A program made the position numbers and the translations under genes. Below are positions 27,088 through 39,258 of a stretch of 51,147 bases of DNA, one piece after another. Location: the NCBI RefSeq assembly GCF_024055665.1, contig NZ_JAMXMC010000019.1, positions 1 through 51,147 of the forward strand. The letters run 5' to 3'. This DNA comes from Ideonella oryzae (lineage in GTDB: Bacteria; Pseudomonadota; Gammaproteobacteria; Burkholderiales; Burkholderiaceae_C). The notes below the pieces were generated by a model. That model did not search any database. It was not told where the DNA came from and was given only the letters and a program-made list of their open reading frames with translations. Positions within the stretch are counted from its first letter, which is position 1, and every line of letters begins with the position of its first letter.

Positions 27088-27822
27088 ATGAACGCACGCT
27101 CCACTTCGGCTGCGGCCGGCGACGCGACGGGCACCGACCCGAGCGCCGTCGCCCGCGGCGCCTCGATCAAGTCGGTCTACGTCTACGAGGCCCCGGTGCG
27201 CCTGTGGCACTGGATCAACGCCGCGGCCATCACCGTGCTGGCGGTGACGGGCTACTTCATCGGCAGCCCGCTGCCGACGATGCCCGGCGAGGCCAGTGCC
27301 CACTTCCTGATGGGCTACATCCGCTTCGCCCACTTCACGGCCGGCTACATCCTGGCCGTGGGGCTGATCGGGCGCATCTACTGGGCCATCGTCGGCAACC
27401 ACCACGCCCGCGAGCTGTTCACGCTGCCGGTGTTCAGCCTGGCCTACTGGAAGGAGGTGATCACCATGCTCAAGTGGTACGCCTTCCTGATTCCCCAGCC
27501 CAGCCAGTACGTGGGGCACAACCCCATGGCCCGGATGGCGATGTTCTGCGGCTACTTCCTGTTCACGCTGTTCATGGTCGCCACCGGCTTCGCCATGTAC
27601 GGCGAGGGCCTGGGCATGGACTCCTGGGCGAGCCACCTGTTCGGCTGGGTCATCCCGCTGATGGGCCAGAGCCAGGACGTGCACACCTGGCACCACCTGG
27701 GCATGTGGGGCATGGTGATCTTCGTGACGCTGCATGTGTACGCCGCGATCCGCGAGGACATCATGGGCCGCCAGAGCATCATCAGCACGATGGTCTCCGG
27801 CTACCGCACCTTCAAACGCTGA
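27088..27822 (+). CDS. hupC: Ni/Fe-hydrogenase b-type cytochrome (HupC/HoxZ)
   Basis: A 244-residue diheme cytochrome b with four membrane helices that passes electrons from HupS to quinone and holds the dimer on the membrane. Conserved elements are VRLWHWINAAAI (heme His), IRFAHFTAGYIL, and DVHTWHHLGMW followed by TLHVYAAIREDIM. It is about residues 35-230, with a 33-residue soluble N-terminal stretch. RBS is AAGGAG. A palindromic repeat follows its stop codon. Confidence 0.95.
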   Translation: MNARSTSAAAGDATGTDPSAVARGASIKSVYVYEAPVRLWHWINAAAITVLAVTGYFIGSPLPTMPGEASAHFLMGYIRFAHFTAGYILAVGLIGRIYWAIVGNHHARELFTLPVFSLAYWKEVITMLKWYAFLIPQPSQYVGHNPMARMAMFCGYFLFTLFMVATGFAMYGEGLGMDSWASHLFGWVIPLMGQSQDVHTWHHLGMWGMVIFVTLHVYAAIREDIMGRQSIISTMVSGYRTFKR

Positions 27823-27826
27823 CCAT

Positions 27827-27886
27827 GGGCCCCCAAGACGCTTCGCGTCGCCCCCCCGAGGGGGAGCGTTCGGCTTGGGGCGGCCC
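27827..27886. repeat. Palindromic repeat element (intergenic copy)
   Basis: A 60-bp imperfect palindrome is centred on CCCCCCGAGGGGG. The outer arms are GGGCCCCCAAG and CTTGGGGCGGCCC, with GACGC/GCGT-type inner arms. It fills the gap between hupC and the HTH gene. A related element of 67 bp is inserted inside hypD (37019-37085). Such GC-rich palindromes occur between genes in Burkholderiales. It could act as an attenuator or stabilise the upstream mRNA. Confidence 0.7.
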
Positions 27887-27896
27887 TGCGCCGAAC

Positions 27897-28241
27897 ATGA
27901 CCGCGTCGTCCACCCGTCCCCCCGCTCCACCGGCGGGTGTGCCGCTGCGCGCACCGCAGCACCCGGGGCGCTTTCTGGAGCGCCACTACCTGGTGCCGCT
28001 GGGCCTGAGCCAGAGCGAGACCGCGCGGCGGCTGGGCATCAGCCGCCGCCGGGTCCATGAGCTGGTCCAGGGCCAGCGGGCGATGACGCCCGACACCGCG
28101 ATCCGCTGCGCGCTGGCCTTCGGCCTGCCCGCAGCCACCTGGCTGGCCCTGCAGGCCGACTGGGACAGCTACCACGCCTGGAAGCAGCTGCGCCACGCCG
28201 CCCTGCCCAGCCGCGCCCCAGCCCCCGCGCTGGCGGCCTGA
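27897..28241 (+). CDS. HigA-like helix-turn-helix protein without toxin partner
   Basis: A 114-residue protein. After a Pro-rich N-terminus (about 1-25) comes PGRFLERHYLVPLGLSQSE, then a helix-turn-helix (TARRLGISRRRVHELVQGQ) and TPDTAIRCALAFGLPAATWL, the pattern of the HigA/VapI antitoxin family. The ATG at 27897 comes just after the palindromic repeat. No HigB-like toxin gene lies before or after it: hupC precedes it and hupD follows by 27 bp. It is therefore an orphan DNA-binding protein in the hydrogenase operon, and a regulatory role is plausible but unproven. Confidence 0.78.
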   Translation: MTASSTRPPAPPAGVPLRAPQHPGRFLERHYLVPLGLSQSETARRLGISRRRVHELVQGQRAMTPDTAIRCALAFGLPAATWLALQADWDSYHAWKQLRHAALPSRAPAPALAA

Positions 28242-36443: not shown

Positions 36444-36698
36444 ATGTGCCTAGCCCTGCCCTCCCGCGTGGTGGAGCGCCTGCCCGATGACCAGGCCCTG
36501 GTGGACCTGGGCGGCGTGCGCAAGACCGTCTCCATCGCCCTGACCCCCGAGGCCCAGGTCGGGGACTATGTGATCGTCCACGTCGGCCATGCCATCGGCC
36601 TCTTGGACCCCGAAGAGGCCGAGCGCACGCTGGCCCTGTTCGCCGAACTCGAAGCCTCCCAGGCGGAAGCCTCGCAACAACCAGGAGCCACGGTATGA
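36444..36698 (+). CDS. hypC: Hydrogenase maturation chaperone HypC
   Basis: An 84-residue protein starting MCLALPSRVV, with the essential Cys2. With HypD it assembles the Fe(CN)2CO unit. It has the usual beta-barrel pattern (GVRKTVSIALTPEAQVGDYVIVHVGHAIGLLD). It is distinct from the longer paralogue HupF at 28973. The last four bases overlap the hypD start (ATGA). Confidence 0.95.
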   Translation: MCLALPSRVVERLPDDQALVDLGGVRKTVSIALTPEAQVGDYVIVHVGHAIGLLDPEEAERTLALFAELEASQAEASQQPGATV

Positions 36699-37933
36699 GC
36701 GGCGGCATGAAGTACGTGGACGAATTCCGCGACGGCGCCCTGGCCCAGCAGATCGGCGCGCGCATCCGCGCCGAGGCTCGGCCCGGCCGCGAGTACCGTT
36801 TCATGGAGTTCTGCGGCGGCCACACCCACGCCATCGCCCGCTACGGCGTGGCCGAGCTGCTGCCGCCCAATCTGCGCATGATCCACGGCCCCGGCTGCCC
36901 GGTCTGCGTGCTGCCCATCGGCCGCATCGACCAGGCCATCGGCCTGGCACTGGACCACGGCGCCATCGTCTGCACCTACGGCGACACGATGCGCGTGCCC
37001 GCCAGCCCCTGGCGTGCCGGGCCGCTCCCAAGCGCCAGGGACCCCCTCGGGGGGCCTGACGCGCAGCGGCAGGTTCGGGGGCCCCAGGACAGCGGCCTGT
37101 CGATGATGAAGGCCAAGGCGCGCGGGGCGGACATCCGCATGGTCTATTCGGCCGCCGACGCGCTGAAGATCGCTCGCCAGCACCCCGAGCGCGAGGTGGT
37201 GTTCTTCGCCATCGGCTTCGAGACCACCACGCCCCCCACCGCCCTGGTCGTCAAGCAGGCCGCGCAGGAAGGGCTGAAGAACTTCAGCGTGCTGTGCTGC
37301 CATGTGCTGACGCCCGGCGCCATCGCCCACATCCTGGACGCGCCCGAGGCCAAGCAATGGGGCGACGCGGTGGCGCTGGACGGCTTTGTCGGCCCGGCCC
37401 ATGTGAGCATCGTGATCGGCTCGGCCCCCTACGAGGCCTTTGCCCGCGACTACCGCAAGCCGGTGGTCATCGCCGGCTTCGAGCCGCTGGACGTGATGCA
37501 GGCCATCCTGATGCTGGTGCGCCAGGTCAACGAAGGCCGGGCCGAGGTGGAAAACGAGTTCACCCGCGCCGTCAGCCGCGAAGGCAACCACGCCGCGCAG
37601 GCGGTGGTGGCCGAGGTGCTGGAGCTGCGCGAGAGCTTCGAGTGGCGCGGCCTGGGCGAGGTGGCCTACAGCGCGCTGCGGCTGAAGCCCGCCTATGCCG
37701 CCTTCGATGCCGAGAAGCGCTTCGGCCTGACCTACCGCCCGGTGGCCGACCACAAGCAGTGCGAGTGCGGCGCCATCCTGCGCGGGGTCAAGCGGCCCAC
37801 CGATTGCAAGCTCTTCGGCACCGTCTGCACGCCCGACAACCCGATGGGCTCCTGCATGGTGTCCTCCGAAGGCGCCTGCGCCGCCCACTACGCCTACGGC
37901 CGCTTCCGCGACATTGCCATCGTCGCCGCCTGA
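36695..37933 (+). CDS. hypD: Fe-S maturation protein HypD with a repeat-derived insertion
   Basis: A 412-residue scaffold on which CN and CO are added to iron. It has FCGGHTHAI, GPGCPVCVLP, GFETTTPPTA and the C-terminal [4Fe-4S] ligands (CECGAIL, TDCKLFGTVCTP, GSCMVSSEGACAAHY). Typical HypD proteins are about 370-385 residues. The extra length is one block, residues 105-133, between RVPAS and GLSMMKAKA. That block (37007-37093) includes a 67-bp palindromic repeat related to the one after hupC. The insertion is 87 bp, in frame and without a stop. All catalytic Cys remain, so the protein may still work, but this should be treated as unproven. Confidence 0.93.
   Translation: MSGGMKYVDEFRDGALAQQIGARIRAEARPGREYRFMEFCGGHTHAIARYGVAELLPPNLRMIHGPGCPVCVLPIGRIDQAIGLALDHGAIVCTYGDTMRVPASPWRAGPLPSARDPLGGPDAQRQVRGPQDSGLSMMKAKARGADIRMVYSAADALKIARQHPEREVVFFAIGFETTTPPTALVVKQAAQEGLKNFSVLCCHVLTPGAIAHILDAPEAKQWGDAVALDGFVGPAHVSIVIGSAPYEAFARDYRKPVVIAGFEPLDVMQAILMLVRQVNEGRAEVENEFTRAVSREGNHAAQAVVAEVLELRESFEWRGLGEVAYSALRLKPAYAAFDAEKRFGLTYRPVADHKQCECGAILRGVKRPTDCKLFGTVCTPDNPMGSCMVSSEGACAAHYAYGRFRDIAIVAA
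37019..37085. repeat. Palindromic repeat element inside hypD
   Basis: The arms are GGGCCGCTCCCAAGC on the left and GGTTCGGGGGCCCC on the right, around the centre ACCCCCTCGGGGGG. The reverse complement of the 27827-27886 repeat gives GGGCCGCCCCAAGC, CCCCCTCGGGGGG and GACGCGAAGCG in the same order, so the two are related. It is translated here as PLPSARDPLGGPDAQRQVRG within HypD. Confidence 0.75.
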
Positions 37934-39047: not shown

Positions 39048-39258
39048 GGGGACTGCCGGTCTGTTCTGCTCCATGTCCCCCGCCCCGGCCAGGCCGGGGC
39101 TCCTCCTTGACTTGCGCAGAACAGACCGGCAGCCCCCTCCTGTCACGGTTCGCGCAAGCTCCCGGGAACAGCCCGCCACGTTGGCAGACGAGGGACGCGG
39201 GCGACTGGCAGAGCGAAGTCAAGGAGGAGCCCTGGGCTGGCCCAGGGCGGGGGACATG
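39048..39258. repeat. Nested inverted-repeat array between hypE and hoxA
   Basis: Two long inverted repeats interleave. Pair 1: 39048-39069 and 39116-39136 (GGGGACTGCCGGTCTGTTCTGC type, one base difference). Pair 2: 39072-39113 and 39216-39258, whose outer ends CATGTCCCCC / GGGGGACATG and inner ends CTCCTCCTTGACTT / AAGTCAAGGAGGAG match perfectly. Each arm of pair 2 holds its own hairpin (CCCCGGCC-A-GGCCGGGG at 39083-39099; GCCCTGGGC-TG-GCCCAGGGC at 39229-39248). The 349-bp gap holds no gene. It may be a terminator/attenuator between maturation and regulatory genes, or a small mobile repeat. Confidence 0.75.

Follow-up and report, generated by a model that had tools for sequence, protein, structure and literature searches.

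An in-frame copy of a GC-rich, three-hairpin repeat in hypD of Ideonella oryzae, with further copies among the Burkholderiales

Repeats that lie within bacterial genes and are read as part of the encoded protein have been described in several systems, which we summarize here from the accessible sections of the sources cited. RPEs are palindromic repeats inserted in frame in unrelated Rickettsia genes (Ogata 2000, 2002, via PMC10969869), and REPs occur beside and inside open reading frames (ORFs) in a number of species, the genes for DnaE, DNA ligase and tRNA synthetase among them; in two species of Xanthomonas, recB carries different REPs at much the same position (Di Nocera et al. 2013, PMC3733652). 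The QMITEs of Coxiella burnetii are described as small repeats that lengthen ORFs or lie within them while preserving the frame (PMC5896051). The Beta-proteobacterial repeat element (BRE) is portrayed as a GC-rich, chromosomal repeat of ~90 bp from Alcaligenaceae and Comamonadaceae, mostly intergenic and partly in tandem, with some copies wholly inside coding sequences, and with a full length of 75-91 bp and a mean GC content of ~69% in Bordetella (Hot et al. 2011, PMC3110155). Since RPEs and REPs provide precedents for palindromic repeats that are read in frame, the kind of event is itself known; an initial annotation of the DNA studied here, which had named Rickettsia as the precedent for the coding capture of palindromes, was right about that genus, yet according to the sections consulted of Di Nocera et al. 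(2013, PMC3733652) such capture extends well beyond it.

In this work, we analysed a stretch of 51,147 nucleotides from Ideonella oryzae (contig NZ_JAMXMC010000019.1, positions 1 to 51,147, forward strand), hereafter the window, in which the hydrogenase maturation gene hypD carries an in-frame insert. The best overall explanation, which we consider very probable, is that a repeat was captured in frame in hypD and that HypD tolerates it. A literature search covering top-ranked results and few subscription journals returned no capture in hypD, as the initial annotation had supposed, nor in glyQ or hutU, and yielded no covarying three-hairpin element, same-site recurrence or start-codon spacing such as those described below.

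The hypD insert and its repeat family

The features on which the analysis is based are the following.

36695-37933, + strand: hypD, hydrogenase maturation protein of 412 aa (Pfam PF01924, 494 bits; NCBIfam hypD equivalog)
37007-37093, + strand: in-frame insert in hypD, 29 codons replacing one codon of uninterrupted relatives
37005-37081, - strand: repeat element, antisense to hypD (full-length match to model R1, 80.2 bits, E 2.8e-14; R1 training member)
37007-37040: hairpin 3, variable stem CCCTGGCG/CGCCAGGG and conserved loop TGCCGGGCCGCTCCCAAG; the stem covaries in the family
37042-37054: hairpin 2, near-invariant CCCCC-TCG-GGGGG (99.5% of cells paired in alignment A2)
37055-37073: hairpin 1, CCTG.CGC-GCA-GCG.CAGG, stem variable in the family
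37077-37081, + strand: terminal G-run, CCCCC on the element strand, adjoining the start codon in many intercistronic copies
27830-27900, + strand: second copy in the window (R1, 54.1 bits; in the R1 training set)
27088-27822, + strand: ORF resembling a [NiFe] hydrogenase cytochrome b subunit, named by eye, 5' of the second copy
ATG at 27897, overlapping the 3' end of the second copy: small helix-turn-helix-like ORF, named by eye
Same window as hypD: full-length hydrogenase large-subunit-like ORF, 618 aa, named by eye

The hypD gene gave one match in the window genome and is thus single-copy. Its insert encodes the peptide PWRAGPLPSARDPLGGPDAQRQVRGPQDS, flanked by RVPAS and GLS, contains no stops and has a net length divisible by three; the frame was said to be kept at the outset, and the insert indeed reads through to the 412-aa HypD. 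The bounds first proposed for an 87-bp block after RVPAS, 37007-37093, proved exact, whereas the 29 residues it was thought to add had to be corrected: relative to the closest uninterrupted homologues the net gain is 84 nt or 28 residues, because the 87-nt block replaces one codon of the relatives. As empty-site references we used Ideonella benzenivorans (L093) and Ideonella sp. B508-1 (L092), whose contigs are those of genomes G004 and G010. The HypD proteins of the window and I. benzenivorans share 374 of 381 aligned residues with a single gap of 28, and the hypD genes of G004 and G010 are 99% identical downstream, the alignment breaking exactly at the insert site. Among 16 same-genus genomes, 13 had a hypD match; the insert was present in the window genome (G000) and in G005, and the other 11 lacked it, the closest relatives giving the clean absence that had been proposed as a check. 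A separate observation is an imperfect inverted repeat located 3' of hypE (39077-39113 and 39216-39252; 37-nt arms, 84% complementary, 102 nt apart), possibly belonging to another repeat family.

The hypD block belongs to a family of GC-rich, non-coding repeats of ~77 nt that occurs in parts of the Burkholderiales. On the element strand, opposite to hypD, a C-run is followed by hairpin 1, whose stem is variable, by CCCCC-CGA-GGGGG, and by hairpin 3, in which a variable stem of 8-9 bp encloses a conserved TTGGGAGCGGCCCGG. The covariance model R1 (77 positions, 26 pairs) was obtained from A1, an alignment by sequence only of 30 sequences from several genomes, 6 of which were among the 10 window-genome hits reported below (hypD, glyQ, pgk, hutU, C2:75662 and 27830), and 117 matches (110 distinct) fitted to R1 constituted a second alignment, A2. 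Pairing in A2 reached 86.1% of cells (shuffles, 66.8%), doubly changed cells numbered 606 (shuffles, 200) and the covariation score was 0.463 (shuffles, 0.138), and none of 500 shuffles was as high in any of these measures; shifting the partners by one column lowered pairing to 55-58%. The signal was weaker in A1 (78.9% paired, 67.8% in shuffles). Pairs changed on both sides exceeded shuffles modestly (21/500 in A2, 23/500 in A1), and further pair types showed no clear excess over them (107/500 in A2, 278/500 in A1). Across helices 1-3 of hairpin 1, 62-79% of the A2 cells were paired, with double changes present. The element thus consists of three hairpins, two of which have covarying stems around conserved loops. 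Searches against Rfam gave no matches in the window at the gathering score, and none in nine repeat loci at E<=1.

By blastn, the best copy outside hypD, located in glyQ, was 83% identical to the hypD block over 71 bases (E 4e-14). The kinship initially suggested with an intergenic palindrome at 27827-27886 was borne out, since a search from the hypD block reached it at E 1e-5 and R1 matched both at full length. At E<=0.1, R1 hits numbered 10 for the window genome, 12 for G005 and one for G004, which provides the genome-wide count called for by the initial annotation, with other in-frame copies among the 10. The blastn value, the 10 R1 hits and the rarity of the element in the class (only two of 143 evenly drawn genomes, one of them the window's own) together place the likeness beyond chance. 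The weakest R1 hits (E above 3e-4; two in G000 and three in G005) resemble a shorter relative lacking the third hairpin. From position 1501 of loci L190-L194, R1 matched with weak scores a related but shorter repeat, CCCCCACGCTCCCTGCCGGTCGCTG-CCCCCCGAGGGGG, which lacks the third hairpin usual in the family and may represent a separate one.

Across the best 80 of 451 named HypD loci, the spacing at the insert site was the standard 19 residues in 72, and hence the insert does not form part of HypD as it ordinarily occurs. The eight exceptions among these best 80 comprised four with a related element, one with 12 additional residues (Ideonella sp. A 288, L107) and three with six (Azohydromonas; L108, L123, L125), the last two kinds being possibly remnants of the element. 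This variation in loop length is what could be invoked to regard the hypD segment as an ordinary lineage-specific loop expansion, its likeness to a repeat being a by-product of high GC content. Such a reading is scarcely credible in view of the blastn copies elsewhere in the genome (the glyQ copy at E 4e-14), the single hairpin order kept between genes and in unrelated enzymes, and the precise empty site in relatives with nearly identical HypD; the architecture common to the copies, with stems that covary, contradicts it. The initial proposal that a repeat had become protein sequence is instead upheld by the clean empty sites in relatives and the further copies in the genome; as the insert is foreign to ordinary HypD sequence among these loci and the palindrome does recur, neither of the two findings that would have spoken against that interpretation was obtained, and it is therefore supported.

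In-frame copies in other enzymes and probable tolerance by HypD

Of the 10 window-genome copies, five are read in frame as part of conserved enzymes, namely hypD, glyQ, one of two pgk genes, a DegT/DnrJ aminotransferase and hutU, the last with Pfam support. The glyQ gene (Pfam, 474 bits; one match in G000) has gained 84 nt at a precise empty site in one of 16 genomes, G008 showing a short ordinary variant there, and hutU likewise gained 84 nt at a precise empty site in one of the 14 genomes with a match. The insert in pgk (+78 nt, precise empty site) occurs in G000 and G005, the site being uninformative in the partial matches of G013 and G014; each carrier also has an uninterrupted second pgk, and therefore this capture is less telling. 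The hutU site was also struck in Ideonella sp. A 288 (L292, G023), within two residues and in the opposite orientation, so the two insertions are independent. In G005, a further copy resides in an oligopeptide-type ABC ATPase, and the 3' end of the G005 hypD holds another element, shorter than the first (L172, 605-663; G005:C1:914771-914829), which changes the C-terminus.

For a broader view, 179 matches were reduced to a sample of 140 copies by leaving out tandem neighbours, second copies per locus, doubly reached places, pattern-search copies of Ideonella azotifigens and one copy cut by a contig end (L320); this sample favours high scorers and includes hypD, G000 and G005 by choice. The sampled copies were 59-83 nt long, with a mean GC content of 77%. 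Coding-like sequence continued in frame on both sides of 29 of the 140, according to a codon-usage score for which genes of the window and hypD genes served as training data and the cut-off, 0.15, was set by hand, and the share was 18/116 when G000, G004, G005 and two hypD loci were excluded. All 20 in-frame ORFs that were scanned had a Pfam match, with names including DNA polymerase III alpha, NAD-dependent DNA ligase, MoeA, MeaB, NosD, FolE2 and an RND pump; the nine others, outside the scan, were the HypD loci L094, L161, L172 and L173, the DegT (L180) and pgk (L189) of G005, and L279, L278 and L339. The same in-frame insertion was also seen in an APH-type kinase gene of Roseateles oligotrophus and Paucibacter sp. 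KBW04 (L254 and L279, 1501-1577; homoserine kinase-like by eye, with a Pfam scan of L254 alone), a capture that seems to have been kept across genera.

The hypD site itself has been occupied in other lineages. Four metagenome-assembled genomes (MAGs), one of Aquincola (L094) and three of Rubrivivax (L095, L098, L161), carry related elements there that provide 25-29 extra residues, with the same hairpin order and orientation as the window copy; R1 scored 42.5 bits on L094 and 46.7 bits on L161, and had no match at E<=0.01 in the inserts of L095 and L098. In a HypD tree built without the insert segment, the window and G005 joined I. benzenivorans (100/100), apart from the MAGs. Separate arrivals in the MAGs and in Ideonella are the simplest reading, and losses or recombination may alternatively account for the shared site.

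Whether the occupied gene is still working bears on the possibility that the insertion damaged hypD and that the gene is decaying. Comparing G000 with G005, and leaving out the first 8 and last 24 codons, we found that 21 of the 351 codons outside the insert had changed synonymously and 7 non-synonymously, as had 0 and 2, respectively, of the 29 codons inside it. These changes are unevenly placed: 6 synonymous and 5 non-synonymous over 96 codons upstream, against 15 and 2 over 255 codons downstream, so that constraint upstream of the insert is weak, much weaker than downstream. Decay would fit with the upstream ratio and with the altered C-terminus of the G005 gene, but we regard it as improbable, given the downstream ratio, the frame kept in two species, the presence of the element in frame at the same site in four MAGs of other lineages, and the facts that hypD is single-copy and that the hydrogenase large-subunit-like ORF of the window is full-length. 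The codon changes suggest that the insert-bearing hypD is a working gene under purifying selection. An AlphaFold model placed insert residues 110-133 as mostly coil within the HypD fold; pLDDT was <50 for these residues and the model is poor overall (mean pLDDT 63), so that the surface loop, which the initial annotation had suggested modelling, is open to doubt.

Copy length showed no bias towards multiples of three (remainders 0, 1 and 2 in 49, 43 and 48 of the 140 copies), and each copy had a mean of 5.07 of six frames free of stops, compared with 4.40 in mononucleotide shuffles; because of this combination, the copies surviving in genes are best explained by selection on readable sequence. 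We thus propose that the ~77-nt element is mobile and would insert regardless of genes, that disruptive insertions would be removed by selection, and that in proteins it would survive as a mostly stop-free, Gly/Pro-rich flexible peptide in tolerant loops, as in a HypD that presumably still works. Against their empty relatives, four coding sites showed no target-site duplication above ~4 bp, the element ends not being fixed, and our search for a mobilising enzyme found none; Y1 transposases, with Y1_Tnp matches in 16 of 21 genomes, did not follow the number of copies.

Distribution and position relative to genes

The element was present at E<=0.001 in 27 of the 30 genomes reached through named loci, with 0-105 copies per genome: Ideonella azotifigens had 105, Hydrogenophaga taeniospiralis 53, Achromobacter veterisilvae 36, a Rhodoferax ferrireducens isolate 27, Variovorax paradoxus 14, Acidovorax facilis 8 and a Polaromonas MAG 2, and at this threshold none were found in Sphaerotilus sulfidivorans, Azohydromonas lata and Noviherbaspirillum denitrificans. 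With evenly drawn genomes, E<=1e-4 and stricter filters, R1 hits occurred in 20 of 200 genomes of the order and in two of the 143 of the class mentioned above, the window genome being included in both sets. One copy used as query matched a single record among 72,556 plasmid records, and presence of the element differs between close relatives. Tandem copies, two or three in a row, were observed at L183/L185, L309, L310, L312 and L322.

The positions of the 111 sampled copies that are not in frame inside genes were surveyed as raw counts. A co-directional stop codon lies 5' of the element in 50 of them, within 10 nt in 44 of those, and an antisense gene start lies beside it in 33. Of these starts, 25 are separated from the annotated end by 4-7 nt (by 6 nt in 20 cases), and 18 of the 25, which come from 12 genomes, display GAGGGG-N5-ATG, in front of varied genes. 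A stop of one gene and the start of another flank the element in 24 copies when the genes share its strand and in 26 when they are on the opposite one, and 11 copies fit no position class. The element may therefore supply a ribosome-binding site for adjoining genes, as judged from this spacing.

These positions, together with the covarying stems, are what favour a reading in which the element would primarily be a functional RNA, a leader or intercistronic module under selection, and the in-gene copies would be side products of its spread. It is a possibility to be taken into account, yet an unlikely one: places adjacent to stops and starts would also be left by selection against disruptive insertions, not all cases are independent, and genomes differ widely in copy number, from 0 to 105. 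The stop-codon pattern could result from selection of that sort, which explains the narrow start spacing less well; the count of close starts is in turn inflated by the common descent of some sites, where the downstream genes are similar across genera. An elaborated version, which we offer as a doubtful conjecture, would have a mobile gene-leader acting as a three-hairpin RNA switch that brings along a Shine-Dalgarno sequence at its end (GAGGGG, five bases ahead of ATG), the C-run being able to pair with this sequence or, alternatively, with the G-run of the element, and spreading between genes of operons in both orientations, with the in-gene copies becoming enzyme loops, repeatedly at permissive sites in hypD and hutU. 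If the supply of ribosome-binding sites were true, one small repeat would be a source of both regulation and protein sequence. Independently of this, capture of the repeat in frame remains our preferred reading of hypD, and the exact empty sites in close relatives make its effect measurable on near-identical proteins with and without the insert.

Comparison with described repeats

Among known families, the REPs or BIMEs of the GTAG/CGTC superfamilies, moved by RAYT (Y1) transposases, are palindromic as well and lie beside and sometimes inside genes, and more than half of the intragenic REPs are dimers or groups encoding 20-30 residues, according to the accessible sections of PMC3733652. That the present element is one of them is very improbable. 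A REP tag would be terminal, whereas GTAG was found in 0/140 copies and CGTC in 58/140, internal in the hypD copy, and membership in these superfamilies was rejected on this terminal tag; moreover, copies are 59-83 nt long instead of 20-40, and Y1_Tnp is absent from genomes with 25-35 copies (G018, G037, G041) and present in genomes with none (G022, G032, G045). In the same description REPs measure 20-40 bp, bear a tag at their end and are linked to RAYTs (PMC3733652), in contrast to a three-hairpin unit without GTAG. The QMITEs, likened to our element by description, are MITEs with terminal inverted repeats from another host (PMC5896051, accessible sections).

The repeat is probably the BRE, judged by description and distribution. 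The likeness lies in the taxa (Alcaligenaceae, Comamonadaceae and relatives), the chromosomal place and the occurrence of copies in coding sequences. Size and GC content are 75-91 bp and ~69% for the BRE of Bordetella and 59-83 nt and 77% here, where the bounds may be narrower. Three hairpins, two of them covarying, and precise in-frame captures with empty sites go beyond the BRE description, as far as its accessible sections extend. With the RPEs, the element shares in-frame insertion, clean empty sites in homologues and a gene still apparently under selection (the last for hypD alone); in the consulted sections of PMC10969869, RPEs are of ~150 bp with a conserved peptide, in contrast to a Burkholderiales element of ~77 nt that is read in at least two frames and in both orientations. 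Protein-coding palindromes are thus best known from Rickettsia and from the short REPs, and here a different, structured repeat is found in the single-copy genes hypD and glyQ.
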